DNA from: Candidatus Thioglobus sp. MED-G25
Lineage (GTDB): Bacteria > Pseudomonadota > Gammaproteobacteria > Arenicellales > UBA868
Assembly: GCA_002456995.1 (NCBI GenBank)
Contig: NTKC01000004.1
Span: 1 to 64,000 of the forward strand
DNA length: 64,000 bases
Direction of reading: 5' to 3'
Shown: positions 21,763 through 41,124 of the stretch, one piece after another
Layout of the letters: each line of letters starts with the position of its first letter
How positions within the stretch are numbered: the first letter of the stretch is position 1
Made by a program: the position numbers and the translations under genes
Notes under the pieces: generated by a model
What the model was told of the DNA's origin: nothing
Database searches by the model: none
What the model saw: only the letters and a program-made list of their open reading frames with translations

Positions 21763-22968
21763 TCAAATATTTGTGTTTGCTGTTTGACCCAGCCTGCTGC
21801 GTACAGATTCAGCTGCAGCTTCAAGCAGAGTTTGTTCCTCGTCAGTTATGGACAGCTCAATAATTTCTCGCAGACCGTTACTATCGAGCACGCAAGGCAC
21901 ACCCAGTACAACATCATGGATGCCATACGATCCGTTCAACATGACTGATACGGGCAGTGCACCTGGCCTGGCACCGCGAATCGCATCCAGGAGCTCACAA
22001 ACCGCGTGCGCGGGCGCCAGTGTCGCAGAACCTGTCTTGCGCAATGCCACGACCGATTCACCGCCATGCACGGTGGTTTCGACACAGTCCCGAATGTCAT
22101 CGTCTGATAGGACTGTCGTTACGGGTTTATTACGAATCAATGCGGTTGACACTATCGGTACCATTTCGCCGCCATGACTGCCCAGCGTCACGGCTTCGAC
22201 ATCACTTACTGGCACACCCGCCTTTTGCGCCAGCGTCCACCGGAAGCGGCTGGAATCCAATGTGCCTGCCATGCCCAGTACTTTATGATGCGGAAATCCG
22301 GTAGCCTCTAGAACTGTCGTGGTCATTTCATCTAACGGGTTGGTGACAACGATCACGATCGAATCCGGCGCGTGAGTGCGGACCGATTCTGAGATCGACT
22401 GAATAATTCTACGATTAATCGTCATCAGGTCAGCACGACTCATACCAGGGCTTCTCGGACGGCCTGCCGTGATAACGACCACCTGAGCGTCGGCAATCAG
22501 ACTGAGATCGGTGCCGCCTTGAACGTGTGTACCACTGCGGGTAATTCCGGATGCGTGGTTAAGGTCTAACGCGGTTGCTTCAGCCACACCGGGTGCGATA
22601 TCAATTAGCGTAACTTCGTTTGCGATGCCGCGGTTCGCCACGAGATGTGCAATGTTCAGGCCAACACCACCGGCCCCGATCAGGGCAAGACGAGAAATTG
22701 TGCCGGGGGATCTGCCCTGGCTAGGTTTGGGTGCGATCCACTTGGGGTTCCTTCGATATAGACTGCGCTGGAGGGTGATAGCGCCATCAGTTTGTGGGAT
22801 GGCTGGTTTTTCTAGTGGGCCATCGACGAGTGTAATGCGGGCGCTTTCGGCAGATTCTCGTGCCAGTTGGGTGACGATGTCACCGGGCAGAATTTCCAAA
22901 ACCTGTCGACCGTTCTGACGGGCGTCAGCGATCTGTTCTGCGCCGATGACACGCGGGCTTCGGGTCAT
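21763..22968 (-). CDS. malate/lactate-dehydrogenase family enzyme with EutQ-like N-terminal region
   Basis: Last gene of the BMC operon; 401 residues. Residues 92-401 are an NAD-dependent malate/lactate dehydrogenase: GAGGVGLNIAHL, GRPRSPGMSRADLM, VVTNPLDEM, LDSSRFRW (Asp238) and the catalytic His265 in LGSHGGE. Arg172 sits where malate dehydrogenases have the residue selecting a dicarboxylate, so oxaloacetate/malate is the likelier pair. Residues 5-50 (VIGAEQIADARQNGRQVLEI, PGDIVTQLARESAE) resemble the start of EutQ; a proline-rich linker joins them. I infer that this region targets or docks the enzyme to the shell and that it regenerates NAD+ inside, replacing the usual alcohol dehydrogenase. 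The start overlaps the BMC-T stop by ATGA. Confidence 0.85.
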   Translation of the reverse strand: MTRSPRVIGAEQIADARQNGRQVLEILPGDIVTQLARESAESARITLVDGPLEKPAIPQTDGAITLQRSLYRRNPKWIAPKPSQGRSPGTISRLALIGAGGVGLNIAHLVANRGIANEVTLIDIAPGVAEATALDLNHASGITRSGTHVQGGTDLSLIADAQVVVITAGRPRSPGMSRADLMTINRRIIQSISESVRTHAPDSIVIVVTNPLDEMTTTVLEATGFPHHKVLGMAGTLDSSRFRWTLAQKAGVPVSDVEAVTLGSHGGEMVPIVSTALIRNKPVTTVLSDDDIRDCVETTVHGGESVVALRKTGSATLAPAHAVCELLDAIRGARPGALPVSVMLNGSYGIHDVVLGVPCVLDSNGLREIIELSITDEEQTLLEAAAESVRSRLGQTANTNI

Positions 22969-23600
22969 TGTGACGCCGTTTCGATGCCCTCGACCATACC
23001 GATGGCTGTGGTTGCCGCCTCCAGTGCGGTCTGTACCGAAGCTTCGCTGCCCGACATGAAAAATCGACCGTATCGACCCAGTGCTTGCACTTGTATGATG
23101 TCAATCTCCGCCGCTTTTTCTGCTTCATTGGCGGCGATCGAGATATACGCTGCTGGGGCGCACTCAATGATGCCAAGTGTTTGACCTGGCACCACCAGTG
23201 ATCCGCTGGACCACTTGTTCAGAAGTTGAGCTTGATAAGGTTCGACCGAAGTAATGATCTGGGTTGATTCAACCTCAGGTTTAAGGCGTTGATTCATGGA
23301 CAAGCCCAGTTCGCCCAAAATTGCATCGCATGCTGCGCTGACCTCTGAATTGTTCGGCGAGCGCAGAATGAAAAAGCCGAACTCGCGTTCCACAATTTGT
23401 GATGTGGCCTCAACACTGGAAGCTTTGAGTGCTTTGTCCACGAGCCGGAAGACTTCGTTGCCTGGCGCCAGTTCGCCGATCAACACCGTGTCTCCGGCCA
23501 GTGGGATCGAACCTTGAACAGTGGCGCCGGTGTAAGCCGCAAACTTGGGTTGCAGCCGGTCGATCTGTATCAGTGCACGAATAGTAAGGTCTGGATTCAT
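22965..23600 (-). CDS. BMC-T shell protein (tandem BMC domains)
   Basis: Trimeric shell protein that builds hexagonal tiles with a larger pore. It has two BMC-fold halves: first IPLAGDTVLIGELAPGNEVF and DKALKASSVEATSQIVEREF, then LGIIECAPAAYISIAANEAE and KAAEIDIIQVQALGRYGRFF. The start is ATG 23600 (MNPDLTIRALIQIDR) with AGGACC seven bases upstream; the open frame runs 16 codons further but overlaps the aldehyde dehydrogenase end. About 211 residues, the usual size. It is the only BMC-T gene here, making a minimal set of one BMC-H, one BMC-T and one BMC-P. Confidence 0.9.
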   Translation of the reverse strand: MNPDLTIRALIQIDRLQPKFAAYTGATVQGSIPLAGDTVLIGELAPGNEVFRLVDKALKASSVEATSQIVEREFGFFILRSPNNSEVSAACDAILGELGLSMNQRLKPEVESTQIITSVEPYQAQLLNKWSSGSLVVPGQTLGIIECAPAAYISIAANEAEKAAEIDIIQVQALGRYGRFFMSGSEASVQTALEAATTAIGMVEGIETASQ

Positions 23601-23610
23601 CGTAGAGGTC

Positions 23611-24981
23611 CTACAAGTCGTAAATATCTCGCCACGGGCGCGACTCATAGGCGATGCGTTTGATGTTGATTAGGTGCAGAGCAGTCACATTGTCCGAGAC
23701 GATTGAGCCGGATGCCGTGCCGGTGCCCAGCATGAAGCTCGGTTCCAGATCGGTGGAAAAACCCATACCCCCTGTAATGGCGGGCGTATTGACCAGCAAT
23801 CGCCCCACCGGTAACTGGCCAAACTGGGCCACGGTATTTGGATCGTCACAATAAATCACCGCTGTATGTCCCCAGCCGCCCAACTCAACGACCTGTCGAC
23901 ACAGGTCGTAGCCGTTATCGACATCACGTGCTTCGTACCAGGCTAGTACGGGATTAAGTTTCTCCATAGACAGCGGTATCTGGCGACCGATTTCGGTCTG
24001 TTCTGATAGTAGTACCCGTGTATTCGGGGGTAATGTGATATTGGCGAGTTGTGCAAGGTGATGCGCTGATTGACCAACGCTGCCGATGCGAATGGATAAT
24101 TCCTCGGTAAATATCACGTCGGCCAACCGTGCCGATTCTTCCGCAGTACAGAAATATCCCCCTCTGGACTTGATTTCATAGCGCAACTGTTGAGCAACGC
24201 TCTGGTCAGCGATTACTGACTGTTCGGATACACACGCTGTCCCGTAGTCAAAAGATTTAGACATCATGATCTGCTCAGCAATTTCATCGAGCTCATGGGC
24301 CTTGGAACTGTGCACATAGAGAGGAACGTTACCAGGCCCGACCGCGAGCGTAGGTTTGCCGGATGAATAGGCGGCTCGGACCATGGCGCTGCCACCGGTT
24401 GCCATGACCACAGAAGTGCGCCGATGCCGCATCAGTTCAGCAGTGCCTTCCTGTGTCACGTGTGGTAGGCATTGAATCAGGCCGCGGGGAGCGCCCATCT
24501 GTTCAGCAGCTTGTGCCATGATGCGGGTTGTTTCCAGCCCGCACTGTACCCCGCGAGGATGGGGCGCACAGACGATGGCATTGCCAGCTTTGACTGCAGA
24601 CAATACTTTATAAATTATCGTCGAAGTCGGGTTGGTCACCGGGATAAGCGCAGCAACCACACCCATCGGTTCGCCCACAGCAGCAATTTTTGTTACATCG
24701 TCCTGCCATAAGACGCCTAGAGTGCGCACATTGCGCAGCCAGTCCGCGACTGTCAGGCAGTTAAAAAGGTTTTTGAGTCGCTTGTCTTCGGCATTGCCAT
24801 AACCGGTTTCTTCTGCCGCCAACAACCCAAGACGCGCACATTCGGGCTCTATGGCTGATGACATGGCTTGAACCACTTCATCGATCAACGAGACATCAGT
24901 ACCCCTAAACTTGCGAAAAGCTTCCCAGGCCGACTCAGCGGCTCGCCGGGCTTCGTAGATTGACAGTAAGTCAGCGTCCAT
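23611..24981 (-). CDS. CoA-acylating aldehyde dehydrogenase (BMC signature enzyme)
   Basis: Converts an aldehyde, CoA and NAD+ to acyl-CoA. The 456-residue sequence has ETGYGNAEDKRLKN, VTNPTSTIIYKVLSAVKAGNA, the NAD region VGPGNVP and the catalytic Cys250 in DYGTACVSEQSV, typical of EutE/AdhE-type acylating enzymes rather than CoA-independent ones. It lacks the 18-residue amphipathic encapsulation peptide and linker that start PduP; the N terminus goes straight into the first domain helices. Its start overlaps the opine-dehydrogenase stop (TAATG). In all metabolosomes this enzyme consumes the toxic aldehyde; here the aldehyde would come from the flavin oxidase at 28274 or the phospholyase at 35534. 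Confidence 0.92.
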   Translation of the reverse strand: MDADLLSIYEARRAAESAWEAFRKFRGTDVSLIDEVVQAMSSAIEPECARLGLLAAEETGYGNAEDKRLKNLFNCLTVADWLRNVRTLGVLWQDDVTKIAAVGEPMGVVAALIPVTNPTSTIIYKVLSAVKAGNAIVCAPHPRGVQCGLETTRIMAQAAEQMGAPRGLIQCLPHVTQEGTAELMRHRRTSVVMATGGSAMVRAAYSSGKPTLAVGPGNVPLYVHSSKAHELDEIAEQIMMSKSFDYGTACVSEQSVIADQSVAQQLRYEIKSRGGYFCTAEESARLADVIFTEELSIRIGSVGQSAHHLAQLANITLPPNTRVLLSEQTEIGRQIPLSMEKLNPVLAWYEARDVDNGYDLCRQVVELGGWGHTAVIYCDDPNTVAQFGQLPVGRLLVNTPAITGGMGFSTDLEPSFMLGTGTASGSIVSDNVTALHLINIKRIAYESRPWRDIYDL

Positions 24982-26168
24982 TAAGTAGCCACCGTCATTG
25001 CGTCCAGTTGTGTTCGTATGCTGTCTAAGTCTGTATTGACGAAGCCCATGTTATCGAGCCGGCGTCCAGCATGGAGCAAGTCACCGCCAATGCTCTGATG
25101 GGCAAGTTCGATCATTGCGGATGTTGCCGGAACAGGCAAATCCGCTAACTGTGCTGCCGATTGCAGCGGCACCAGTGAGCCCATTGTCGCACAGCGGATA
25201 AGATCGTCCGCCTGATTTGGTTGTGGCACTGGACGGACCATCGTACCGGCCATCGTACCGGCAAAACGATCCAGCCACTCATCGGTCGAGGGTAGATTAC
25301 GTACCCCCCAACGTGCGGCAACTGCACGCCGTTCTTTCGCCAGCGTTGTCACGATGCGATTGTGCCGCTCACCGAGAAGTGTCCGGAAAACACGCCTGTT
25401 TTCCAGGGGTTCTGCGCCGGCGGGTAATGGCGTTTGGCCGTCTTGTAGAGCTAAACCGCCCAGAGTTAGGGCTACGACCTCGACCAGGCCGCTGGCATCG
25501 CCAAAACCAGAATGAAGTACGTTGGCGACAGGTGCCAAATCGGGTATCAGCGCAGCCATTGCACCCAAGACGCCCCTATTTCCGCTGGGTAACACCGCTG
25601 TTGTGACTGGGCCGGTTTCAGTCAGATAGAGCGTCCCACCCCGGTCATCGACCCAAAAAGGCAGAGACTGAAGCTCGACGATCGATATGGCTGAAGAATT
25701 ACCGCCGACCCTGAGGTACCAAGCGGTTTCAACCGCCCCCAAGGTTCGGCCTGGCGCGACCACCACCACCTGACCATCATTCAGATGTCCACCCAACACC
25801 ATGGCGTAGGTACGCTGCTTGAGAACCGGACCGGTGACGAAGATAGCATCGGCGTCGAGAACAGCCTCATCCAGGCTGGATGACAGTGTTATGGAGGGTA
25901 CTTCGGACTGATTGATCTGATAGGTCCCGACCGGACCGCTGCCACGAATGGTAATTGCACCGCGTTGCCTGAGCGGGTCCAGATCCCGGGCATAGGCGGA
26001 GAACAGGGTGACGTCGCAGCCGGCGGCCAGACATAGACAAGCCAGAGCACAACCCTCTGCATTCGCGCCGAGTACGGTGATCCTTTTCAAAGGATGCTCA
26101 TTAGTAGGGATAACCGCGGGCATCGTAGCGAAAGCCCCAACGACTTGCTGGATCTCTGTGGTACTCAT
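24981..26168 (-). CDS. opine/octopine dehydrogenase family protein
   Basis: NAD(P)-dependent enzyme of the octopine/nopaline dehydrogenase family, 395 residues. A Rossmann domain starts at about residue 28 (ITVLGANAEGCALACLCLAA) with DADAIFVTGPVLKQRTYAMV and VVVAPGRTLGAVETAWYLR. The helical C-terminal domain carries PLENRRVFRTLLGERHNRIV and a helix WGVRNLPSTDEWLDRFAGT. Known members join or split an amino acid and a keto acid through a secondary amine, so an N-alkyl amino acid is a plausible substrate. The first 28 residues (TTEIQQVVGAFATM, then a Pro-rich link) precede the fold and may be an encapsulation peptide. It lies between BMC-H and the aldehyde dehydrogenase, inside the shell operon. 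Confidence 0.8.
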   Translation of the reverse strand: MSTTEIQQVVGAFATMPAVIPTNEHPLKRITVLGANAEGCALACLCLAAGCDVTLFSAYARDLDPLRQRGAITIRGSGPVGTYQINQSEVPSITLSSSLDEAVLDADAIFVTGPVLKQRTYAMVLGGHLNDGQVVVVAPGRTLGAVETAWYLRVGGNSSAISIVELQSLPFWVDDRGGTLYLTETGPVTTAVLPSGNRGVLGAMAALIPDLAPVANVLHSGFGDASGLVEVVALTLGGLALQDGQTPLPAGAEPLENRRVFRTLLGERHNRIVTTLAKERRAVAARWGVRNLPSTDEWLDRFAGTMAGTMVRPVPQPNQADDLIRCATMGSLVPLQSAAQLADLPVPATSAMIELAHQSIGGDLLHAGRRLDNMGFVNTDLDSIRTQLDAMTVAT

Positions 26169-26252: not shown

Positions 26253-26549
26253 TCAGCCCAGCGACGGCAGCAGGCCTTCGATTTCCGAATCTGGCCTCGG
26301 GATTACATGAACAGCAACCAGTTCACCCACCTTGTTGGCTGCAACGGCACCGGCATCGGTCGCAGCTTTGACAGCACCGACTTCACCTCTGACCAGTACC
26401 GAAACCAGACCGCCACCCGCCTTGACGTGGCCTATGATGGTGACATTTGCAGCCTTGACCATTGCGTCTGCTGCTTCTATTGCCGGGACAACGCCCCGGG
26501 TTTCAATCATCCCCAGGGCGACATGCCCCGGACTTAATTTTTCTGCCAT
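26253..26549 (-). CDS. BMC-H shell protein (hexamer-forming)
   Basis: Canonical single BMC-domain protein of 98 residues, the main tile of the shell. [20 protein letters not shown], then [20 protein letters not shown] and [18 protein letters not shown] align with PduA/CsoS1/CcmK. The pore loop reads KAGGG where PduA has KIGSG, so the pore would be small and lined by backbone amides. There is a GAGGA ribosome-binding site. It sits 13 bp after BMC-P and 84 bp before the opine dehydrogenase. Confidence 0.96.
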
Positions 26550-26562
26550 GGTGTAGTCCTCG

Positions 26563-26859
26563 TTAGCCAGAATTAGCCTGGTATGTTAGTTGATTGTTCA
26601 CAGTAATTTCGTCTACCAGCATAACAGCTGTTTCGTCAGTCGGAGCACCACTGGTTTCCGGTGATATCCGAGCTGCCGATCCCGATGCCAGTAAGACCAT
26701 ATCACCAACACCGGCACCACAGGTATCAGTGATCACCTGGCTCGGGTTCAGTACTGCCCCACTGGCATCTACGATATCCACAAGTAGTAGTTTTTGGCCC
26801 ACCAATCGACCGTCTTTGATAGCACCGGTTACTGAGCCGATGACTCGGGCAATTTTCAT
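26563..26859 (-). CDS. BMC-P shell vertex protein (EutN/CcmL family)
   Basis: Pentameric vertex protein of 98 residues that closes the shell corners. [54 protein letters not shown] and the C-terminal [15 protein letters not shown] are the EutN/CcmL pattern. Its start overlaps the stop of the ligase gene by one base, so the ligase and shell are translationally coupled. Confidence 0.96.
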
Positions 26860-28154
26860 CAGAAGTTTTCTAGGTATCGTTCAATTTCTACGGGCGTGAC
26901 CTGGTTGGCAATAAACTCTATTTCACGCTCCGACTGCTGGATTAAAAGCTCGAGCAGATCCGCTCCTAAAACTTCGGCCATAAGGTCGGACTCTCGTGCG
27001 AGCGCTACAGCGGTCGCGAGATCTGTAGGTATAGGCTGACAGTCCGGGTTTTCGTATCCATTGCCTACCGTTTCTGCCGTAGGCTCAAGACTGTCTTCAA
27101 TGCCTTTGAGGCCGGCAGCAATTTCCAGTGCCAGTAAGAGATAGGGATTGCAATCAGCAGAGCCATCGCGTTTTTCTACTCGGACCGCGTTATCGTTGCC
27201 CAGAATGACGCGCAATCCAACTGTACGGTTGTCAATACCCCAAGCATTGTTTATCGGGCAGAAAGAATAGGGTTGACGGCGACGGTAGGCATTTGGTGTG
27301 GTTGCTGAAACCATTGCCATTTCAGCCATGTGTTTTTGAAGTCCCGCGAGATAGTGTCGTCCGAGCTTAGACAACGCACCATTGTCAGCCATTACATTCT
27401 GGTTATCTTTCCACAAGGAGTGATGAACATGGAACCCATTACCGGACTCGGCGAAGAAAGGCTTAGACATGAAAGTCGCATGATACCCATGCGCGTTTCC
27501 AAGTTCTTTGACGAGTCCCCTGAAAGTGACGACACGATCGGCCGCTATCAGTGCTTCGTCGTATCGGATATTGACTTCTACTTGACCGGCAGCATATTCC
27601 GGGTTGGACTGTTCAATCGGTATGCCGACTGCGGTTAAATGACGTCGAATTGGACCCAACACATGTTCCAGTTCAGCTGCCCTTGGCAGGCCATAAACCT
27701 GGATTCCGCGATCTCTGGGCTTCAAGGTTTCTTTGTCCAGTAGGTAGAACTCAAGTTCAGTCCCGATTCGCGTTACATATCCCATATCACTAGCTTTCTG
27801 TAAAACTCGCACAAGCGCAGCTCGAGGGTCTATCGCCACTGGCTGATGATCTGTGCCTACAGATTCGGAGAACGAATAGACCACACCTTCTTCCCAGGGA
27901 ATCGGGTGGACCTCACCAATGGGCATAACATGCACGTCAGGGTAGCCCGTGTCCCAGTTCGTATAGGGGGTATCCCACACGTCGCAAGTCATGTCGATGG
28001 CAAATATCGCGTTCGCCATTGCCATCCCGGACTCACAGATGTTGGCCCAGTTTTCCGCCGGGATACGTTTGCCCCTTAGTAACCCGTTTAAGTCACCCAT
28101 TCCCAGCACGACAGTGTGGACACCCTCTGGTAGCGGCTTATGTTCTTGGCTCAT
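26859..28154 (-). CDS. glutamine-synthetase-family gamma-glutamyl-amine ligase (PuuA/GlnT/GmaS-like)
   Basis: First gene of the BMC operon, 431 residues. Glutamine-synthetase fold with RIGTELEFYLLD (metal-binding Glu), GQVEVNI, GNGFHVHHSLW, NAYRRRQPYSFCPINNAWGI, NRTVGLRV and ADCNPYLLLA. The pattern matches PuuA (gamma-glutamylputrescine synthetase) and related amine ligases rather than GlnA, and the adenylylation-site region of GlnA is absent. It probably uses ATP to join glutamate to a primary amine. AGGAG lies ten bases before the ATG. A GntR-type palindrome lies 78-92 bp upstream in the divergent promoter shared with the oxidase. Which amine it takes is unknown; ethylamine, an amino alcohol or a diamine would fit. 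Confidence 0.88.
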   Translation of the reverse strand: MSQEHKPLPEGVHTVVLGMGDLNGLLRGKRIPAENWANICESGMAMANAIFAIDMTCDVWDTPYTNWDTGYPDVHVMPIGEVHPIPWEEGVVYSFSESVGTDHQPVAIDPRAALVRVLQKASDMGYVTRIGTELEFYLLDKETLKPRDRGIQVYGLPRAAELEHVLGPIRRHLTAVGIPIEQSNPEYAAGQVEVNIRYDEALIAADRVVTFRGLVKELGNAHGYHATFMSKPFFAESGNGFHVHHSLWKDNQNVMADNGALSKLGRHYLAGLQKHMAEMAMVSATTPNAYRRRQPYSFCPINNAWGIDNRTVGLRVILGNDNAVRVEKRDGSADCNPYLLLALEIAAGLKGIEDSLEPTAETVGNGYENPDCQPIPTDLATAVALARESDLMAEVLGADLLELLIQQSEREIEFIANQVTPVEIERYLENF

Positions 28155-28246: not shown

Positions 28247-28273
28247 TCACTGCCGAGCAATGGTGAGTTGACA

Positions 28274-29419
28274 GTGCCCATCTCTACACATGCCGTGGTA
28301 GTTGGTGCGGGAATTGCTGGTGTAATGACCGCCCTCTACCTCCAACGACGAGGCTGCAGCGTGACGCTGGTCGATCGCTGGGAGCCCGGTCATTCGCGCG
28401 CGTCATCTTCCGACTACAACCGGATTCTGCGCGCCATTCATGGCAGTGATGAGATGTATACCCGCTGGGTGCGTGAAGCGCGGCTGCGCTGGATGGAGCT
28501 GGAACAGGAACTCAACACAGAACTCTACATCGAATGCGGTGCGCTCATTCTGGCCGAAGAAGGTCACTCCACCTGGGAAGAGGTCACCATGCCTACGTTC
28601 GACAAACTGGGCGTTCCCTATGTGCGTGTCGGGCCTGATGAATTACCGGTGCGATTTCCGCAGTTTGATTTTCGCAAAGTGGCTTTTGGTTTATGGGAGC
28701 CCGAAGCCGGTATGGTGCTGGCCCATCGTGCGGTAACTGAAACTTTTAAGCAGTTCCTGCGTGAAGGCGGTCAGTTTCGTAGGGGTCGTGTCACCACCGA
28801 CGAAACTGAGACACCGCTTTTGGATGGGAAGCCCCTGTCTGCTGATCTCGTGGTCATGAGCTGTGGGTCATGGCTGGCGTATCTGTTTCGGCAGACTTTG
28901 GGCTCTATGCTGAAGGTGATCCGGCAGGATATTGTGTACACGTCGACACCTGATGGTGATCGGTCATTTGACGCTGATCAGATGCCCTGTTTTGTAGATC
29001 ATGGGTATGGGGCTTACGGGGTCCCGTCGGTCTACGGCTGGGGAGTTAAGGCGGCAATCGCCTGGCATGCCACAGATATTGATCTGGATGATGAGGATCG
29101 GGTGGTCGACCAGTCGGCCATCGCACGGTCACGACAGTACTGGGCGTACCGATTTCCACGCCTTGCAAATGAAATTGTGATCGACCAAAAAGCCTGTCAT
29201 ATCTCAATGACGCCGGACACGCACTTCATCATCGATTTCCACCCTCGCCACAGCAACGTGCTGATCGTCGGTGGGTGTTCAGGCCATCTGTTCAAGCATG
29301 GTCCGATGCTAGGAGATTATGTTGCCGGCGTTGGTTTGCAGGAGTGGGGAACAGCGCCGCGATTCAAGATCGGCCCGCGAACGTCAATGCCGATGAGCGA
29401 ATCGCCCTCGGGGCGTTAG
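28274..29419 (+). CDS. FAD-dependent amine oxidase, monomeric sarcosine oxidase-like
   Basis: Flavoprotein of about 381 residues that likely oxidises an N-alkyl amino acid to the free amino acid, an aldehyde and hydrogen peroxide. It has the dinucleotide motif VVGAGIAGVMTALYLQRRG and the sarcosine-oxidase end: KACHISMTPDTHFIIDFHP then NVLIVGGCSGHLFKHGP. The Cys in KACH (residue about 308) aligns with the Cys that holds FAD covalently in monomeric sarcosine oxidase, so covalent FAD is expected. The start is GTG 28274 (GGTGAG seven bases upstream) or TTG 28268. It is divergent from the BMC operon and convergent with the glx genes. PuuB-type oxidases look different, so I favour the N-alkylglutamate role. 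Confidence 0.85.
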   Translation: MPISTHAVVVGAGIAGVMTALYLQRRGCSVTLVDRWEPGHSRASSSDYNRILRAIHGSDEMYTRWVREARLRWMELEQELNTELYIECGALILAEEGHSTWEEVTMPTFDKLGVPYVRVGPDELPVRFPQFDFRKVAFGLWEPEAGMVLAHRAVTETFKQFLREGGQFRRGRVTTDETETPLLDGKPLSADLVVMSCGSWLAYLFRQTLGSMLKVIRQDIVYTSTPDGDRSFDADQMPCFVDHGYGAYGVPSVYGWGVKAAIAWHATDIDLDDEDRVVDQSAIARSRQYWAYRFPRLANEIVIDQKACHISMTPDTHFIIDFHPRHSNVLIVGGCSGHLFKHGPMLGDYVAGVGLQEWGTAPRFKIGPRTSMPMSESPSGR

Positions 29420-29442: not shown

Positions 29443-30864
29443 CTACCAGCTGTAGGGTCGGTCGATGCCGGCGAGCTTGACGCCAGTGAAGGCCGATGCT
29501 TCCAGTGACAGGGCTCTCAGGTCTTCGACTTCAAGATTGTGGACATTGGATTTACCGCAGGCTTTAGCCAGCAGCGTGACTTCCATAGTCATCGCTGTCA
29601 GGAATCGCGCGACTCGTTCGGACGCAGCGGGAACGTCCACGCGTTTTTCCAGCTCAGGGTCCTGTGTTGCCACACCCACCGGACATAGACCGGTATGGCA
29701 GTGGTGACATCGACCCGGTGCGGTGCCCAACGCCGCGTAGTCATCTAAGTAGCGGGGTGAATTACAACCCAGGGCGACTAGACCGGCTGTACCGATCATC
29801 ACCGCATCAGCGCCCAGTGCGAGGCATTTGGCGACGTCTGTGCCAGAACGGATGCCGCCGGCAGCGACCAGTGAGACCTCGTCAGTTTTACCGCACTCAT
29901 CCAGAGCCTCACGCGCAGCACGAATCGCGGAAATTAGCGGGATCCCGGTGTGGTCGAGCAGCAGTTCTGGGGAAGCTCCGGTGCCGCCTTCGGCGCCGTC
30001 AACCACGATGACGTCCACCCCAGCTTTAGCTGCAATTGCAACGTCGTAACGTGGCCGGGTGGCGCCCATCTTGAGAAAAATCGGGACCTGGTAATTGGTT
30101 GCCTCACGGAGTTCTTCGATTTTGACCTGCATGTCATCGGCGCCTAGAAAATCAGGGTGGCGTACGGTCGACCGCTGATCAACTCCTTTAGGCAGAGAAC
30201 GCATTGCGGCTACTCTGTCTGAGACTTTCATCCCCAGCAGCAGACCGCCGGTGCCGGGTTTGGCCCCCTGCCCGACGACGAGTTCAATACCGTCCGCCAT
30301 GCGCAGATGCTCCAGGTCCAGCATGTAGCGCGAAGGGGTCATTTGGTAAACCAGTGTGCTGGACGCTTGCCGCTCATCTTCCAGCATGCCCCCTTCGCCC
30401 GTGCACGTCATACTGCCGACCTTGGATGTACCGTATCCCAGTGCAGCCTTTGCAGACGCGGACAACGCACCGAAGGACATGGATGCGATATAGATCGGGA
30501 TGTCCAGTTCTATCGGTTTTTCAACCAGACCGGGACGATTGCCCAGAACGGTGCGCGTGTCGCAGCTTTCCCGGTAACCCTCAAGTGGTAGGCGAGTCAT
30601 GGTGGCTGGTACGAATGTCAAATCATCAAACGTGGGCATCCGTTGATTGAAGGTATTAAAGCCCCGGATCTGGTAACGCCCCAGACGCGATAACGCATGC
30701 ACCTCCGACAAAGATTGGGGAGTCCAACGGACAGAATCGCCCTTTTCATAAGACGACGGGACACCCGCCGGCCGGTTAGCATCGGCGCCGTCGGTCATTG
30801 CAACGGCGTCTTCTGCTGGCGTTGCAAAGGGGTAGCTGTAGGGAGTTTTTAGATCATCAGCCAT
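29443..30864 (-). CDS. glxD: FMN glutamate-synthase-like subunit (GlxD/MgsC family)
   Basis: 473-residue homologue of the FMN/Fe-S central domain of glutamate synthase. ASMSFGALSASAKAALGYG, AKPGTGGLLLGMKVSDRVA, FLKMGATRPRYDVAIAAKAG, DGAEGGTGASPE and the iron-sulfur motif CHHCHTGLCPVG (residues 386-397) are visible. In N-methylglutamate synthase (MgsABC) this is the subunit where the amine is joined to the glutamate skeleton. The start overlaps the end of glxC by 16 bp. The three glx genes are transcribed toward the oxidase. Their role is probably to convert a gamma-glutamyl-amide or free amine to an N-alkylglutamate. Confidence 0.85.
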   Translation of the reverse strand: MADDLKTPYSYPFATPAEDAVAMTDGADANRPAGVPSSYEKGDSVRWTPQSLSEVHALSRLGRYQIRGFNTFNQRMPTFDDLTFVPATMTRLPLEGYRESCDTRTVLGNRPGLVEKPIELDIPIYIASMSFGALSASAKAALGYGTSKVGSMTCTGEGGMLEDERQASSTLVYQMTPSRYMLDLEHLRMADGIELVVGQGAKPGTGGLLLGMKVSDRVAAMRSLPKGVDQRSTVRHPDFLGADDMQVKIEELREATNYQVPIFLKMGATRPRYDVAIAAKAGVDVIVVDGAEGGTGASPELLLDHTGIPLISAIRAAREALDECGKTDEVSLVAAGGIRSGTDVAKCLALGADAVMIGTAGLVALGCNSPRYLDDYAALGTAPGRCHHCHTGLCPVGVATQDPELEKRVDVPAASERVARFLTAMTMEVTLLAKACGKSNVHNLEVEDLRALSLEASAFTGVKLAGIDRPYSW

Positions 30865-31541
30865 GCGCTTGCGTCCCGACTTTCAAAGTGCCATAGCCGC
30901 TGTGCTGATACAATTTTCTGCCAAGAGCGGCTGCCGTTATCCAGGCCCCTGCTGGCGAGCAGATCCTCGATTTGTTCAATTTCATCATCGGACGGTTGCG
31001 CGATTTTTGAATCTACGCCTAAGGATTCGATAGGGCCTGCGACCCAGACTTCACCGCCCCAGAGGGAATCAGCGCATGCTTCATCGGCGCCACCCAGTGC
31101 GATGATGCGGCCGGCGTGTGCCATAAACCCCGACAGATAGCCGATCTTTCCTTCGACAATTATGTCGCCGCCTTTCATGGAGACACCACAGCGAGGGCCG
31201 GCATCCCCTTTGACGTGAATCAGACCACCGCGCATTGAGGCCCCGAGGCTCATACCGGCATAGCCGTTTATCGTGATTTCGCCGCTGGCCATTGCCTCCC
31301 CGGCGGCCCAGCCGGCATTGCGTGATATCGTGATGTGAGCGCCATTGTTGAGACCGCCACAGTAATAGCCGACACTGCCGTCGAAATGAACCTCTGCACC
31401 AGCAGGTAGGCCGATGCCTAGATTATGGCGGGAACGGGTATCGGTCACGGCGACGGGCTGGCCGGATTCGATTCCGGCCCGAATAGCCTGGTTGCACTCG
31501 CGCAGCGGTCGGTCGGCAACCCGAACTTCGTGTCTGTTCAT
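30849..31541 (-). CDS. glxC: glutamate synthase GXGXG-domain protein (GlxC/MgsB family)
   Basis: 230-residue protein made mostly of the GXGXG beta-helix domain that forms the C-terminal part of glutamate synthase. Repeats such as GVSMKGGDIIVEGKIGYLSG and FMAHAGRIIALGGADEACAD are visible. In MgsABC-type complexes it scaffolds the amidotransferase and FMN subunits. It overlaps glxB by four bases (ATGA) and glxD by 16, so the three are made together. The last 50 residues (EQIEDLLASRGLDNGSRSWQ) are helical and end in the common C-terminal form of this subunit. Confidence 0.85.
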   Translation of the reverse strand: MNRHEVRVADRPLRECNQAIRAGIESGQPVAVTDTRSRHNLGIGLPAGAEVHFDGSVGYYCGGLNNGAHITISRNAGWAAGEAMASGEITINGYAGMSLGASMRGGLIHVKGDAGPRCGVSMKGGDIIVEGKIGYLSGFMAHAGRIIALGGADEACADSLWGGEVWVAGPIESLGVDSKIAQPSDDEIEQIEDLLASRGLDNGSRSWQKIVSAQRLWHFESRDASAWLMI

Positions 31542-32485
31542 GCCGCACGGTCCAGCGATGAGTGAGTCTGCCAGGTTTGCGTTAGGCTGGGACCGTCAAA
31601 GTTGACCACTTCGACTTCGTCAAGATGGACAGTTCGCACGGCTTGCTCTTCGGTGGCGATTGAGAGTGTATTGTTGCTGTCTACCGCCACCAGCGGTTTA
31701 ATAGCCCAACGATCTTTTGCAAATCCCAGCCGGTCGTGGTTGCTGTACAGAAAGGTGAAGCAGCCATCGATCTCCGTCAGCGAACGCTTCAATGCATCAG
31801 CCTGGGTCTCGCCTTGGCTCATACGGTCGGATATCCATACCGCCAGCAGTTCACTGTCGTTTTCGGTCATGAAGCGGTAGCCTTTTCGTTCCAGTCGTGC
31901 CCGCCAAGTGAAGTAATCGGTAATCTGGCCGTTGTGGACAATGGCGACATCGGGAAAAGGTCGGGCCCAGAATGGATGGCTGGCAGTCGGCGAGACATCT
32001 GATTCCGTCGCCATTCGAGCATGCCCTAATCCGTGTGTGCCAATGAAATCACGGACGTTGTGTTTTTCCGCGACCTCTGCTGCACCGCCGAGGTCCTTTA
32101 CAATTTCCAGAGCTCGGCCGACAGATTGCACTTCAATTCGATCAGAATATTCATCGATCTGTTGGACCCAATCTGTGAGAGACGTGGGCTCACGAATCTC
32201 CATACGTACAGACACATGATCTGAATCAGCTTCGTCATGAGTTGGGTCGCTCAAAAAGTCGCTGCCGTGCTCACGCAGAAGGTCGAGAAAAAATTCGAGA
32301 TCTGCCGACAGATTCTGTCGTTTGGCAGTCATTGCCCGCACAATATAACCGCTCTCAAGAGGCTTGCCGTAGAGGGCAAAGCCGGTCGAATCCGCACCGC
32401 GGTGGCGCTGGGCGTGCATTAGCTTAACCAGGTCCGCGCCAACCAGACCAGGTTCAGTCAGAATTCTGCCTGCGATACCACACAT
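31538..32485 (-). CDS. glxB: class II glutamine amidotransferase subunit (GlxB/MgsA family)
   Basis: Ntn-type glutaminase domain protein, 315 residues. I chose the start that gives MCGIAGRILTEPG, because the catalytic Cys must be residue 2 after Met removal; the open frame runs 18 codons further upstream but would bury it. HRGADSTGFALYG, GLGHARMATESDVSPTASHP, IVHNGQITDYFTWR and ENDSELLAVWI are amidotransferase landmarks. In MgsABC the subunit acts on glutamine or a gamma-glutamyl amide to feed amine to the FMN subunit. A perfect TGTAT-N5-ATACA palindrome lies 20-34 bp upstream of the chosen start, overlapping the likely promoter, so repression by the nearby GntR is likely. Confidence 0.87.
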   Translation of the reverse strand: MCGIAGRILTEPGLVGADLVKLMHAQRHRGADSTGFALYGKPLESGYIVRAMTAKRQNLSADLEFFLDLLREHGSDFLSDPTHDEADSDHVSVRMEIREPTSLTDWVQQIDEYSDRIEVQSVGRALEIVKDLGGAAEVAEKHNVRDFIGTHGLGHARMATESDVSPTASHPFWARPFPDVAIVHNGQITDYFTWRARLERKGYRFMTENDSELLAVWISDRMSQGETQADALKRSLTEIDGCFTFLYSNHDRLGFAKDRWAIKPLVAVDSNNTLSIATEEQAVRTVHLDEVEVVNFDGPSLTQTWQTHSSLDRAA

Positions 32486-32504
32486 AATGCCGCCCTTCCT
32501 GCTT

Positions 32505-32519
32505 TGTATACTGAATACA
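32505..32519. promoter_or_regulatory. candidate GntR operator upstream of glxB
   Basis: TGTATACTGAATACA is a perfect TGTAT-N5-ATACA inverted repeat, 20-34 bp before the glxB start and 13/15 identical to the element at 28232-28246. Its repetition at two promoters of the locus and next to a GntR gene supports a common regulator. Confidence 0.65.
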
Positions 32520-32604
32520 CTGATTATAGATCCTGGCAAATGCGGATCATAGAGGTGCTGTCTAACAACAAGTACAGCCTGAATGCCGCCAGTTTGGCTG
32601 GTGC

Positions 32605-34527: not shown

Positions 34528-35541
34528 TTAAATGCTCGGCATCGGCTCGATCGAAATTCCATGGCTTGCCATTACCCTGACGGCCTTTGATCGCACGTAG
34601 TTGATAAGATGAGGTAAGGCTATGCTACCTGCCGTAACCTCCGGTCGTGCCGAATACCATCCAATAGATACCAATGCTCTTATCAACATGAAAATACGCA
34701 CGTATGCTAGATCATTGTCACTGATGGGCCGGAACTTGCGGTAACCAGTGATCATAGCTGCCTGCAGATGTTCAATGGGCTTGTCGAGGTGATAGTTAAA
34801 CAGAGCGACCGCTATGTCATAGTGATGCCAGCCGAAACCCGAATCATCAAAATCAATTACGTGTAACCGACTTCCTTCAACGACGATGTTGGCAGGATGC
34901 AGATCGGCATGGATGATACTGTACGTGTGCGGGTCTTTACCGAACTCAAGAAGGAGGTCATAAATATTGTGCCGCAACGTATCAAAATATATTTTTTGAT
35001 CTGGGGTTAAAGCAGAGGATTCCCAGAATCTTCCCCAGAATGGTGCCTCGCCCATTAATCCGTCGGCATCGAAGGAATGTCGCGAGAACTTTAACGGTAT
35101 GGTCCAAGAAACCGCTTGATTATGGAACTTAGCCATGATCTCACCCAAAAGTGAGAAAGAATTTTCAACAAATGTTGAATCAGGATTGCTTTCAATGAGA
35201 TTCTCCATTGGCATACCATCTACCCATTCGAGAAGTCCTGCATAACGGTGTTGATTACCAAGATAGACAGACACATATTGTTGACCGTCTCGAGTGATAC
35301 GGGGCACAGGAACAGTGAGTCCGGCGTCCAGAAGAGCCTCAGTCCACTGTAGCTCAGAAAGCAGTTCGTTCAGATTATGATAACCAGGCCTATGTAAGCG
35401 AAGAACAAAAGACTGTTTTGTGCCATCCGTAATCTTGAAAACGATGTTTTCGGTCAGAGTTAGGGGTTCGATATCTTGGGTCTGGATATCCCAGCTTGCA
35501 AGTGCATTATGAGCGGCCGCCCAGGACAAATCATTAAGCAT
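34528..35541 (-). CDS. APH-family kinase, hydroxylysine/amino-alcohol kinase-like
   Basis: 337-residue small-molecule kinase of the aminoglycoside phosphotransferase fold. SIIHADLHPANIVV is the catalytic loop (His-x-Asp...Asn) and LHVIDFDDSGFGWHHYDIAV the metal-binding Asp. ENIVFKITDGTKQSFVLRLH is the nucleotide-binding strand pair. It overlaps the PLP enzyme gene upstream by eight bases. An APH-type kinase paired with a class III PLP enzyme is the arrangement used for hydroxylysine, ethanolamine or 1-amino-2-propanol: the alcohol is phosphorylated, then the phosphate and amine are eliminated to an aldehyde. Antibiotic resistance is unlikely given this context. Confidence 0.8.
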   Translation of the reverse strand: MLNDLSWAAAHNALASWDIQTQDIEPLTLTENIVFKITDGTKQSFVLRLHRPGYHNLNELLSELQWTEALLDAGLTVPVPRITRDGQQYVSVYLGNQHRYAGLLEWVDGMPMENLIESNPDSTFVENSFSLLGEIMAKFHNQAVSWTIPLKFSRHSFDADGLMGEAPFWGRFWESSALTPDQKIYFDTLRHNIYDLLLEFGKDPHTYSIIHADLHPANIVVEGSRLHVIDFDDSGFGWHHYDIAVALFNYHLDKPIEHLQAAMITGYRKFRPISDNDLAYVRIFMLIRALVSIGWYSARPEVTAGSIALPHLINYVRSKAVRVMASHGISIEPMPSI

Positions 35542-36793
35542 CTAAATGTTCAAGTGTCTGTTCTAGAGCACCTAAAAACTCCTCCGCATCAATTTTTGAA
35601 AACACAAGAGGTGGGCGAACCTTAAGAACATTGTCGTATGCGCCAGCATTACCTGTCAGAAAACCTCGATCTTTAAGTTCATTAACCACGCGTACTGCAC
35701 TTTGTTTATCTGGAGCTTTACTTTTCGAGTCTGTAACAAATTCAAGCCCCCGAAAAAGACCATGCCCACGAACATCTCCAATTGACTTATGTTTCGCTTG
35801 GATTTGAAGGAATCGTTCGTGTAGAAACTGGCCAACAGTAGTCACATTTTCATGGAGATTTTCTTGTTCAATTACGTCAAGCACAGCATTTCCAGCCGCG
35901 GCTTGCACTGGACTTGATGCGCAAGTGTTGAAATAACGGGTTTGTCGACGGAACATTTCAGTAACTTCCGTTGATGCAGCTGTTGCTGCAAGGGGTATAC
36001 CACCTCCTAGAGGTTTACCCATGGTGACAATATCGGGTACGAAGTCCATTAGCTCATACCCCCACCACAGACCGGTACGACAAAGCCCGGCCTGAACTTC
36101 ATCAGCAATAAATACTCCACCAGCTTGATGAATAAGTTTAACGGCCGCCTTCATATATCCTTCGGGAATATTTGGCAGACCCTCATTAGCTAGTATTGGA
36201 CATACGAGCATACCCGCAAACGGTATACCGTCTTCACGAAAAGAGTCGATCACTGATTGGAGCTCTCTGAGAAAATGTTCCTTTGGATCATCAGCATCAG
36301 TGCGGTAGGTCTCTGGAAACGGTATGGATCGCACTTCGCCCCGATTGTCCTTTGGAAGAGTTAGTTTCGAAACCTCAACACTGTTTCCGTGGTAAGTAGC
36401 GTTGGTGCATACAATACCTCGGCCTCCAGTTACCATTCTCGCCATTTGCAAAGCAATTTCATTGGCCTCTGTACCGGTGCAGCTAAAAATTACACTTTCA
36501 ATTGACTCATGATGAGTATTAATTAGTCGATCAGCATAATCTAGGATGGATTGATGCAGATACCGGCTATGGACGTTCAAAGTATTTAGTTGGCGTGACA
36601 CAGATTCTACAAAATGGGGATGACAATGACCTACACACGGTACATTGTTGTAAAGGTCAACATAACGGCGTCCAGACTCATCGTATATAGAAACGCCTTC
36701 CCCTCGTACGAGTTGTACGGGTTTTTCATAGAACAGAGTCGACCCCTTACCAAACAAGCTGTTTCGTCGGTTGAGGAGTGTTGTGTTAGTCAT
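35534..36793 (-). CDS. class III PLP enzyme, ethanolamine-phosphate/phosphohydroxylysine phospholyase-like
   Basis: 419-residue fold-type I PLP protein close to the AGXT2L group. YVDLYNNVPCVGHCHPHFVE, SCTGTEANEIALQMAR, TYHGNSVEVSKLTLPK, FIADEVQAGLCRTG and the PLP lysine in IVTMGKPLGGGIP are visible. AGXT2L proteins are not aminotransferases but lyases that turn O-phospho amino alcohols into aldehyde, ammonia and phosphate. The kinase next door supplies exactly such a substrate. It is the gene after the PotC-like permease, overlapping it by four bases. An ordinary omega-aminotransferase remains the alternative. Confidence 0.8.
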   Translation of the reverse strand: MTNTTLLNRRNSLFGKGSTLFYEKPVQLVRGEGVSIYDESGRRYVDLYNNVPCVGHCHPHFVESVSRQLNTLNVHSRYLHQSILDYADRLINTHHESIESVIFSCTGTEANEIALQMARMVTGGRGIVCTNATYHGNSVEVSKLTLPKDNRGEVRSIPFPETYRTDADDPKEHFLRELQSVIDSFREDGIPFAGMLVCPILANEGLPNIPEGYMKAAVKLIHQAGGVFIADEVQAGLCRTGLWWGYELMDFVPDIVTMGKPLGGGIPLAATAASTEVTEMFRRQTRYFNTCASSPVQAAAGNAVLDVIEQENLHENVTTVGQFLHERFLQIQAKHKSIGDVRGHGLFRGLEFVTDSKSKAPDKQSAVRVVNELKDRGFLTGNAGAYDNVLKVRPPLVFSKIDAEEFLGALEQTLEHLDA

Positions 36794-37587
36794 TTGTTAT
36801 CCTTTTGCCCGGAAAAGGCTTTTAGGCTGAAGCCTATTGCTAATGCTAATGCACCAACTAATACCGACAAGAAACCTACGGCAGGCACCATGGGTGTGTA
36901 TCCACCGATCATTTTTCCGTAAAGCCATTCAGGAATTGTTACATCCGCGCCACTGGTGAAATAAGCCAACGGAAAGTTACCCCAACTGAGCAAAACTGCG
37001 AACATAAACCCGGAGACAATTCCAGGGCCTAGCAGCGGTATCGTAATATCACGAAACACCTGCCAGCGAGACGCGCCGAGATCAGTAGCTGCCTCCTCGA
37101 CTGAAGCGTCATAGCCAAATGCCTGAATAGAAATTATTAGGGTAACAATCGGTGCAATCCAGACCAATTGTGCGAAAACTGTAGCCTCCCAAGACATAAC
37201 CACGCCAAACGAATTGAACCACAGTTGGAGTGCGAGCCCAAGCACCGACTGTGGAAAAAATACAGGAACAAGGAGTATTTGTTGGAACAATGACTTCCCG
37301 CGCCAATCATGTCTTGCATAGGCAAGAGCCCCGAACACTGCCAGCGTCACTGAAATCAGGGCTACGCAGAAAGCCACCGTCAGTGAGGTGAGGAATCCAT
37401 CGTGAATCTGGAGAGAAGAAAAAGTATTTTCATACCATTTCATGTCATAACGTCGAACCGGAAAAACGAAAAATCGTGATTTTGAAATCGATGCTAAGGC
37501 AACTATTAGCATCGGCACATACATCAAACTCAATATTAGTGCCAGATAGGACTTAGCTAAGCGGCGGTAAAGGACTGAATCAAACAT
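36790..37587 (-). CDS. ABC transporter permease, spermidine/putrescine type (PotC-like)
   Basis: 265-residue inner-membrane permease with six hydrophobic segments. The cytoplasmic coupling loop EEAATDLGASRWQVFRDITIPLLGPG is the EAA motif that contacts the ATPase. MYVPMLIVALASISKSRF and YDMKWYENTFSS match PotC. It is the second permease of an importer for a polyamine-like or amine-containing compound, followed directly by the phospholyase and kinase, so import and catabolism appear linked. Confidence 0.88.
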   Translation of the reverse strand: MFDSVLYRRLAKSYLALILSLMYVPMLIVALASISKSRFFVFPVRRYDMKWYENTFSSLQIHDGFLTSLTVAFCVALISVTLAVFGALAYARHDWRGKSLFQQILLVPVFFPQSVLGLALQLWFNSFGVVMSWEATVFAQLVWIAPIVTLIISIQAFGYDASVEEAATDLGASRWQVFRDITIPLLGPGIVSGFMFAVLLSWGNFPLAYFTSGADVTIPEWLYGKMIGGYTPMVPAVGFLSVLVGALALAIGFSLKAFSGQKDNK

Positions 37588-37600
37588 ATGTTGTATACCG

Positions 37601-38476
37601 CTAGCGTGTGCCTAGCACTTTATTGAGGTCTATCTTGCGCATTGCGAAAAAGACCGCTGTACCAGCTAGGATAATCAATAGTACGGCTAGGGCGGACCCA
37701 CGCGGCCAGTTTTGGCCATACGAAAATGCCGATTCGATATCTTGTGCGATGGTTACGATCACACCTTTGCCTAGAAATTTGGCTTCAGAGAACGCGCCTA
37801 GTGAGATCACAAAACAAAGAAGAGAACCAATCAAGATGCCTGGCATTGCTAATGGGATCTCGATGTCTCGAAATATTCTCCATTTACTGGCGCCCAAGTC
37901 GAGAGCCGCTTCTCGCACATCCGTTGGTACATTTGACAGGCCGAGTAAGACCGGAAACAGCATAAACGGCAAATAGATATAAACCATTCCAAATACTATG
38001 GATGGTACGTTGTTTACCAAGCTGCCAGGTCCGAAACCAAAAAGATAATTAAGACTTCCATCAAGAAATCCGGCTTTATCAAAAAATAGAACCCAGCCTT
38101 GTAGGCGAATATTTTCTGCAACAAATAGCGGAGCCACAACAAGAAGCGTCAGTGTGTCTGCCATCCCACCTGAGTAGCGCTTAAGTGCCAGAGCAAGTGG
38201 GTAACATATTATTAGGAGTAACGCCGTGCTGATAATTGCCAGAAGCAGTGACCACCCAAATGAAAGATAAAAAGCCTGCTCAATAATATCTATATAATTT
38301 TCTAAAGTCGGGGTTCCGAACGGACTAAAAGATCCTCTGGGCTGGACGCTGTAAAGCATAACTAGCGCGAGTGGACCGAAAAATCCTAGTCCTAGAAGGA
38401 CAAACAAAGGTGCACTACATAACAGGCCTGATGAAAGTGACGACCAAACTCGAGATATCGATTTTTGACTATCCAT
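37601..38476 (-). CDS. ABC transporter permease, spermidine/putrescine type (PotB-like)
   Basis: First permease of the importer, 291 residues, six hydrophobic segments and an EAA loop REAALDLGASKWRIFRDIEIPL. I start it at ATG 38476 (MDSQKSISRVWSS), which has AAGGG upstream; the open frame continues 69 codons upstream but that stretch is Cys-rich, unlike a permease, and overlaps the ATPase gene. It pairs with the PotC-like protein 13 bp downstream. Confidence 0.88.
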   Translation of the reverse strand: MDSQKSISRVWSSLSSGLLCSAPLFVLLGLGFFGPLALVMLYSVQPRGSFSPFGTPTLENYIDIIEQAFYLSFGWSLLLAIISTALLLIICYPLALALKRYSGGMADTLTLLVVAPLFVAENIRLQGWVLFFDKAGFLDGSLNYLFGFGPGSLVNNVPSIVFGMVYIYLPFMLFPVLLGLSNVPTDVREAALDLGASKWRIFRDIEIPLAMPGILIGSLLCFVISLGAFSEAKFLGKGVIVTIAQDIESAFSYGQNWPRGSALAVLLIILAGTAVFFAMRKIDLNKVLGTR

Positions 38477-38486
38477 GTATGACCCT

Positions 38487-39554
38487 TTACTCCGGAAACA
38501 ACATGGAATCCTCGGGATTCCATCCAAAACTGACCTGATCACCAGATTTCGGCAGTCCCGCCTCTCGAAGTCGTTCAACCAAGAAAGTATCGTTTTTACA
38601 TCGAATTTGGTATTGAATTCGGGAGCCAAGAACGTATTCGTTGAACAATTCGCCACTGAACACGTTCGTACTACGACCTTCATCAGGATTGACTAGGCGC
38701 ATATTTTCAGGTCGGATCATTAAAGTTCCTTGCCTAAAGGAAGTCTCCACACTAGAAGGAGGCGTTATGGCCGCACCCATGGATTCACACCATAACTCTC
38801 CACCGTTGCCTCGGGTTACAGCAATAGAATTAACTTCACCCATAAATTCGCATACGAATCGGTTGACAGGATTGCTATAGATTTCGTGGGGACTACCTAT
38901 TTGAGCGAGCCCACCGTCGCGCATCACGCCAATTCGATCGGACATTACCATCGCCTCTTCAAGCGAATGAGTGATATAAACGAACGTTTTTTTTGTTTCT
39001 CGCTGGATATCTTTTATTTCCTTTTCCAGCGTCTTTCGAAGTCGGTAGTCAATGGCAGATAGGGGCTCATCAAAGAAGAGGATTTCCGGATCAAATGCTA
39101 ATGCTCTGGCTAGTGCGACTCTTTGTCGCTCGCCACCTGAGCATGTAGTAACCGGTCTGTCGTAGTAAGAAATTGGGAGATGAGATAATTCTAAGCAACG
39201 TACCGCTCTTTCCTTTCGCTCCGATGGTGGAGTGCCACGGCACTTGAGAGGATATTCTACGTTGCCCCCAACTGTCATATGCGGAAACAACGCTAAAGAC
39301 TGAAACACCATACAAGTGGGACGCCAGTTGGCCGGTCTATCGTTGACGCGTTCACCTCTAAGCAGAATGTCGCCCCGAGTTGGCTTATCCATGCCAGCAA
39401 GCATTCGTAGTAAAGTGGTTTTCCCTGAACCTGAGGGTCCTACAAGTGTGAAGAACTCGCCTTCTTCGAATGCAAGAGTGATCTGGTTTACTGCGGCAAG
39501 ATTTCCAAAATACTTGTCCACACCGAGTAACTCCATTATCGGTTCTGCTGGCAC
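38487..39554 (-). CDS. ABC transporter ATPase, PotA-like
   Basis: 355-residue nucleotide-binding subunit. Walker A is VGPSGSGKTTLLRML, the signature is TCSGGERQRVALARAL (CSGGE instead of the common LSGGQ), Walker B is ILFFDEPLSAID and the switch His is in YITHSLEEA. The last 100 residues form a TOBE domain (LMIRPENMRLV), as in PotA/FbpC importers. It begins the permease genes with a 10-bp gap. A strong hairpin upstream separates it from the binding-protein gene. Confidence 0.93.
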   Translation of the reverse strand: MPAEPIMELLGVDKYFGNLAAVNQITLAFEEGEFFTLVGPSGSGKTTLLRMLAGMDKPTRGDILLRGERVNDRPANWRPTCMVFQSLALFPHMTVGGNVEYPLKCRGTPPSERKERAVRCLELSHLPISYYDRPVTTCSGGERQRVALARALAFDPEILFFDEPLSAIDYRLRKTLEKEIKDIQRETKKTFVYITHSLEEAMVMSDRIGVMRDGGLAQIGSPHEIYSNPVNRFVCEFMGEVNSIAVTRGNGGELWCESMGAAITPPSSVETSFRQGTLMIRPENMRLVNPDEGRSTNVFSGELFNEYVLGSRIQYQIRCKNDTFLVERLREAGLPKSGDQVSFGWNPEDSMLFPE

Positions 39555-39675
39555 TGATTTATCCTTTCATACTTAGATCAAAGTTGATTAACTATTACCT
39601 GTCTCAATCTTAAGAATATCTGTCTGTGAGGTAAATAGGAGCATTGTTCACACAATATTTGACGTTACTACTGAA

Positions 39676-39702
39676 CAGAGCGGCTGGGGTCCAGCCGCTC
39701 TG
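39676..39702 (-). terminator. strong hairpin between binding-protein and ATPase genes
   Basis: CAGAGCGGCTGG-GGT-CCAGCCGCTCTG is a perfect 12-bp stem with a 3-base loop. On the minus strand no T tract follows, so it is more likely an mRNA-stabilising or partial-termination hairpin that raises binding-protein expression over the rest of the operon. Confidence 0.6.
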
Positions 39703-39747
39703 TATTTAGCAGTAATGTGATGCTTTACCGTAGATAAAGCAGTTAAG

Positions 39748-41019: not shown

Positions 41020-41124
41020 CATTACCTCCTTGGTAGGGTAGTGTTTAGTTTTATGTATTTACTTTCTTACAGATAGATATATCATAGATTTATAACTGTG
41101 AATTAGCAAGAAAGCGCACCTCTA

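Follow-up and report, generated by a model that had tools for sequence, protein, structure and literature searches.

The window, by which we mean the whole 64,000-nt stretch that was analysed (source assembly 1.6 Mb, 86% complete), carries a gene for a protein with the opine dehydrogenase (ODH) fold within a run of bacterial microcompartment (BMC) genes. The order of this run is glutamine-synthetase-like (GS-like), BMC-P, BMC-H, ODH, aldehyde dehydrogenase (ALDH), BMC-T and malate/lactate dehydrogenase (MDH), and the genes concerned are as follows.

21763-22968, minus strand: MDH with an additional N-terminal domain of ~90 aa (profile matches)
22965-23648, minus strand: BMC-T (tandem) shell protein (PF00936; CcmP-like NF053796 below cut-off)
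23611-24981, minus strand: CoA-acylating ALDH, type I EutE-like (TIGR02518 at 472 bits, which is under that model's equivalog cut-off; 451/488 positions matched)
24981-26168, minus strand: ODH-fold protein, candidate BMC cargo (phmmer, AlphaFold model, 69 named loci beside shell genes)
26253-26549, minus strand: BMC-H shell hexamer with the AMVKAA and AATDAG peptide-groove helices (groove motif counts)
26563-26859, minus strand: BMC-P shell pentamer (PF03319)
26859-28154, minus strand: GS-like ligase (PF00120; TIGR03105 below cut-off)
28268-29419, plus strand: flavoenzyme resembling monomeric sarcosine oxidase/N-methyltryptophan oxidase, divergent from the operon
29443-32539, minus strand: three glutamate-synthase-like genes, putatively resembling N-methylglutamate (NMG) synthase subunits

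BMC-H, BMC-P and an ALDH occur together in one locus, the combination that marks a BMC metabolosome operon. As originally predicted, the ODH gene lies between those for the hexamer and the CoA-type ALDH and overlaps the latter in a TAATG, one base (24981) being common to both. A search of eight locus-bearing genomes gave no match to the phosphotransacylase PduL (PF06130), an enzyme that MIC-type loci do not require. MDH is probably the NADH recycler, by analogy with the role that Axen 2014 (PMC4207490) proposes for malate/lactate dehydrogenase in PVM and possibly MIC1 loci, the same pfams being noted there in the PVM core. The extra N-terminal domain of MDH (DIVTxxAxExA, then RRxLYRRxPxW) is conserved across loci, and the sarcosine-oxidase-like protein has a conserved SPSGR C-terminal tail in all loci displayed. 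Beyond the RidA gene, at 34528-41022, the window encodes a kinase of the APH type, a class III aminotransferase and an ABC transporter of the Pot type; in many of the related loci this place is taken by a Liv/Urt-type ABC transporter.

The ODH-fold gene encodes 395 aa and begins with ATG, and in the window genus no other in-frame start lies 5' of this codon. This absence, combined with the conservation of the N-terminal motif described below, rules out a chance extension or a wrong start, and a dN/dS of 0.10 between the window and a same-genus relative rules out a relic; the ODH is a real gene under selection. An ODH-alignment scan of named genomes, which was based on two conserved peptides and therefore samples this ODH clade rather than all ODHs, recovered 69 loci from alpha- and gammaproteobacteria, including Rhodobacterales, Hyphomicrobiales and several gammaproteobacterial groups. 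The carriers comprise ~70 bacteria, mostly marine, with Ruegeria, Hoeflea, Nitratireductor and Sulfitobacter among the cultured marine representatives. A shell gene adjoins the ODH in all 69 named-genome loci, and the overlap with the ALDH gene is kept across loci (median -1; -1 or -4 in 42/70). On contigs that are long enough, related loci have the order GS/BMC-P/BMC-H/ODH/ALDH/BMC-T/MDH/RidA with a divergent sarcosine-oxidase-like gene, while a GltB1 match to the NMG-synthase-like genes was present in 37/72 loci, counting fetched flanks only.

Closer to the window, the operon recurs in two further genomes from the same genus and in a second family of the order, which also includes additional ODH relatives belonging to this clade. 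Across 369 genomes of the class, strong same-clade ODH matches coincide in the same genomes with BMC-T proteins of at least 74% identity, and a BMC-T search of these genomes for ODH-free loci found orthologues at this level only where the BMC-type ODH occurs. Other BMC-T matches, at about 33-46% identity, probably belong to other shell types such as carboxysomes. Plasmid records gave no match to the ODH. In the ODH tree, in which some outgroup branches are long, one long-stemmed branch (100/100) sets all BMC-type ODHs apart from the ordinary ones. Two Arenicellales genomic regions (L138:6259-10301 and L139:5563-9441) contain a second, different BMC locus that lacks this ODH. It consists of two BMC-T genes, BMC-H, a BMC-P-like gene, an ALDH whose C-terminal tail looks helical and a 178-aa protein that seems to begin with a helix. 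Separately, in the same-genus MAG contig LUSG01000139.1 (L011:11914-14178, also L020), residues 1-332 of the ODH run in frame into the ALDH from about residue 34 as a 755-aa ORF, which could reflect either a genuine fusion by deletion or a join made during assembly.

The family likeness proposed in the original prediction is borne out at the level of fold. The protein matches 1bg6 by phmmer (E 5.6e-18), and its AlphaFold model (pLDDT 88.8) places a helix at residues 3-14, followed by a linker of low confidence that extends to about residue 28, after which the Rossmann domain begins. The best solved structure is again 1bg6 (Z 37.2, 2.6 A over 336 residues, 24% identity), with octopine dehydrogenase 3iqd at Z 30.4, and both matches indicate the two-domain fold of opine dehydrogenases (Rossmann plus helical). 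With the 1bg6 enzyme, N-(1-D-carboxylethyl)-L-norvaline dehydrogenase (CENDH/ArODH), the protein has in common this fold over residues 26-389, the Rossmann domain and the position of the active-site Trp (W298, retained in 59/67), but it differs in an additional N-terminal helix and linker, a score to Pfam Octopine_DH (PF02317) of 22.3 bits that is below the gathering cut-off of 30, and several exchanges at functional positions. The residues of interest, all on the minus strand, are:

25191-25193, minus strand: C326, near catalytic Asp297 of ODHs
25479-25481, minus strand: E230, in place of catalytic His202 of ODHs
25746-25748, minus strand: R141, at A111 of ArODH and Q118 of octopine dehydrogenase, an acidic-substrate signature
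25818-25820, minus strand: K117, in an invariant K-x-R-T-Y-A-M cleft stretch
25992-26000, minus strand: S57-A58-Y59, invariant, at D34/I35/D36 of the reference ODH (cofactor ribose site)

Ordinary ODHs employ a catalytic His-Asp dyad (PMC10787698), which was not found here. The His202 position is acidic in 67/67 BMC-type ODHs (Glu 64, Asp 3; Glu 64 and Asp 4 when one partial-sequence row is included), whereas it is His in 16/16 ordinary ODHs. Near Asp297 the window has C326 and the family has Asp in 40, Cys in 22, Ser in 4 and Ala in 1 of 67, the alignment register at this position varying between two runs for the 40 Asp-bearing members. The RYxxED motif, present in 16/16 ordinary ODHs, is absent from the BMC-type ODHs compared. 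At the ribose site, Asp34 and Asp36 of the reference are Ser57 and Tyr59 in 67/67, and the cofactor glycine loop (26052-26069) reads GANAEG in the window genus versus GGGxDA in most members, the ODH pattern being GxGxxG/A. With the catalytic His and RYxxED lost and the ribose-site Asp replaced, ordinary ODH catalysis cannot be taken for granted, nor can a dependence on NAD, and judged by its aligned residues the protein fails the defining catalytic test and is not filed as an opine dehydrogenase. The cleft is nonetheless highly conserved. K117 is present in 67/67 members and lacking from ordinary ODHs, and K117, R119, T120, Y121, D224, E230 and R290 are invariant or nearly so. Combined with the dN/dS of 0.10, these invariant residues indicate that the protein is not decaying and argue for a working ligand site.

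A second feature separating these proteins from ordinary ODHs is the N terminus, where 28 residues precede the first strand of the Rossmann fold, exactly as had been predicted. This segment comprises two parts.

26127-26162, minus strand: putative encapsulation helix, residues 3-14 (TTEIQQVVGAFA), predicted as helix in the AlphaFold model
26085-26126, minus strand: flexible linker, residues 15-28 (TMPAVIPTNEHPLK), low pLDDT

Nearly all full-length members conform to the N-terminal consensus MSxxFxxF[A/T]xA. Both Phe residues of the motif are present in 65/67; in the window genus their places are taken by Ile6 and Val9, which preserve the hydrophobic pattern. The family linker has a higher fraction of Pro, Gly, Ser, Ala and Thr than the body (0.58 vs 0.44) and a lower one of hydrophobic residues (0.12 vs 0.32). 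The amphipathic character claimed for this stretch holds at family level, where 57 distinct N termini have a mean z of 1.9 relative to shuffles (z > 1 in 52), but is only mild in the window's own sequence, the 12-mer of the window genus having a moment of 0.37 vs 0.21 +- 0.10 for shuffles, with 180/2000 shuffles as high. Among 10,235 ATG starts in the loci, 63 match the motif and all are ODH genes, 11 of them assigned to ODH by their sequences. Ordinary ODHs begin within ~5 residues of the first strand in 12/16 cases, and the remaining four start further ahead without the motif and may be start mis-calls. The same N terminus was thus not encountered outside BMC loci, all 69 loci being shell-linked and the non-BMC ODHs lacking the motif.

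Encapsulation peptides are terminal amphipathic helices of 15-20 residues joined to a flexible linker (PMC11157265, PMC12339742), and the groove between the AMVKAA and AATDAG helices of BMC-H is a proposed binding site for them (PMC11157265). The conserved helix motif, confined within the loci to ODH genes, and the Ser/Pro/Ala linker support the encapsulation-peptide layout of the original prediction. As in PduP/PduD/PduL-type peptides, there is a terminal amphipathic helix with a hydrophobic face and a flexible linker, and the BMC-H groove motifs are present; unlike them, the candidate shell-binding helix of the ODH has a core of ~12 residues with a Phe-x-x-Phe signature. From these features we infer that the ODH-fold protein is very probably encapsulated in the shell.

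Several residues bear on what the protein may bind. ODHs with a preference for acidic amino acids carry Arg at position 111 together with a small residue at 198, and exchange of this pair switched the preference from Phe to Asp (PMC10787698). In the BMC-type ODHs, R141 occupies the first position in 66/67 and the small residue S226 stands at reference position 198 in 64/67, a combination that fits a glutamate-containing substrate. The metagenomic ODHs (mODHs) that prefer acidic amino acids have the same Arg and small residue, and in some of them D34 and D36 are likewise replaced by uncharged residues, but mODHs retain the His-Asp dyad, and no link to BMCs is described for them (PMC10787698). 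Arg292 of CENDH has no conserved Arg counterpart at the aligned column, a loss that parallels R292V in a directed-evolution CENDH variant that coupled a ketone without a carboxylate to butylamine (PMC6033044). A further parallel exists with imine reductases, which also combine Rossmann and helical domains and in which an acidic residue is possible where relatives have a catalytic base or Lys (PMC6033044). Imine reductases are a separate family without a sequence match to the BMC-type ODHs, so that the likeness is an analogy.

Together with the GS-like, NMG-synthase-like, sarcosine-oxidase-like and RidA neighbours, these residues suggest an adduct of glutamate with a short amine as the substrate. 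The GS-like ligase would convert an amine to a gamma-glutamylamide. Since GmaS enzymes of the broad GS-like family accept ethylamine (PMC7948447) and the ALDH is an acetaldehyde-type enzyme, N-ethylglutamate would be a sensible candidate to begin with. That NMG-synthase-like genes were seen near only some of the loci (37/72, within the fetched flanks) counts against the first-choice reading given below. The NAD-linked oxidation of N-alkylglutamate originally predicted is favoured by the R141/S226 signature and disfavoured by the loss of His and RYxxED and of the ribose-site Asp. The accompanying suggestion that the ODH-fold protein replaces the flavin oxidase is unlikely, the oxidase gene being retained alongside in nearly all loci.

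We posit, as a tentative first choice that is somewhat less than evenly probable as a whole, that the ODH-fold protein is carried in the lumen of a conserved metabolosome of mostly marine bacteria and is a re-tooled oxidoreductase acting on imines or secondary amines. Its N-terminal amphipathic helix and flexible linker would tether it to the shell, and its active site would have been rebuilt, with an acidic residue for His, RYxxED lost, and an acidic-substrate Arg and the K-x-R-T-Y stretch gained. The activity, substrate, cofactor and direction that we infer are those of a pyridine-nucleotide-dependent enzyme working on a glutamate adduct (N-alkylglutamate or the imine) beside the ALDH, such that an aldehyde would be produced or trapped within the shell and handed on as acyl-CoA. 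Against an oxidoreductase, the loss of His could equal a loss of catalysis, the D34 to Ser and D36 to Tyr exchanges and the GANAEG loop of the window genus weaken the case for NAD, and the flavin oxidase already oxidises N-alkyl amino acids.

The second choice takes the loss of His in 67/67 at face value and regards the protein as a non-catalytic adaptor, an ODH fold whose helix carries the ALDH into the shell. Type I BMC ALDHs usually have a C-terminal encapsulation peptide (PMC8217296), whereas in the loci examined none was found at either terminus and the C-terminus ends at the core. An ALDH without a peptide, translated in overlap with a peptide-bearing ODH directly upstream, could be brought inside by the latter, and the in-frame fusion ORF of one same-genus MAG, which may be an assembly join, would suit such a pairing. 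The near-invariance of the polar cleft residues K117, R119, Y121, R141, D224 and E230 is unlike that of a decayed pseudoenzyme, and we consider the adaptor unlikely, if credible. Alcohol dehydrogenase is the cofactor recycler of classical metabolosomes. None was recognised in the operon and no BMC-type phosphotransacylase in the eight genomes, which would leave room for the ODH-fold protein to recycle lumen NAD(P)H by reductive amination of a 2-oxo acid or aldehyde with glutamate or another amino acid, much as animal ODHs act reductively under hypoxia (PMC6033044). This seems improbable, as malate/lactate dehydrogenase already suits the role by the PVM and MIC1 precedent (PMC4207490) and the replaced ribose-site Asp means that the cofactor may differ from that of the ALDH. 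An ordinary encapsulated opine dehydrogenase with canonical His-Asp chemistry would agree with the 1bg6 similarity and fold and with the active-site Trp in 59/67; it was rejected on its catalytic residues and is very improbable, since His and RYxxED are both kept in 16/16 ordinary ODHs.

Signature enzymes of BMCs include those of the B12, glycyl-radical and aldolase types. If the oxidoreductase reading were correct, the ODH relative could take their place as signature enzyme in a hitherto undescribed type of microcompartment that degrades amines, generating the aldehyde from N-alkylglutamate within the shell by imine-reductase-like acid catalysis, an extension that we regard as doubtful. The locus resembles the MIC and PVM metabolosomes (PMC4207490, PMC8217296) in combining an ALDH with a lactate/malate dehydrogenase and in having no phosphotransacylase that was found, but differs in adding GS-like, ODH-fold, sarcosine-oxidase-like and RidA genes, none of which we found named as a signature enzyme in the main text of either paper. 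Our literature search found no paper that connects BMCs either to octopine dehydrogenase or to the present set of genes. Many metabolosomes have an aldehyde dehydrogenase and no known aldehyde-producing enzyme, according to PMC8217296. The present locus is that of an orphan microcompartment conserved among cultured marine bacteria, in which the putatively peptide-tagged protein beside the ALDH would be a rebuilt opine dehydrogenase. It may thereby provide a natural case of an ODH with an exchanged catalytic His, and glutamate adducts with short amines would give this orphan microcompartment a concrete substrate class.
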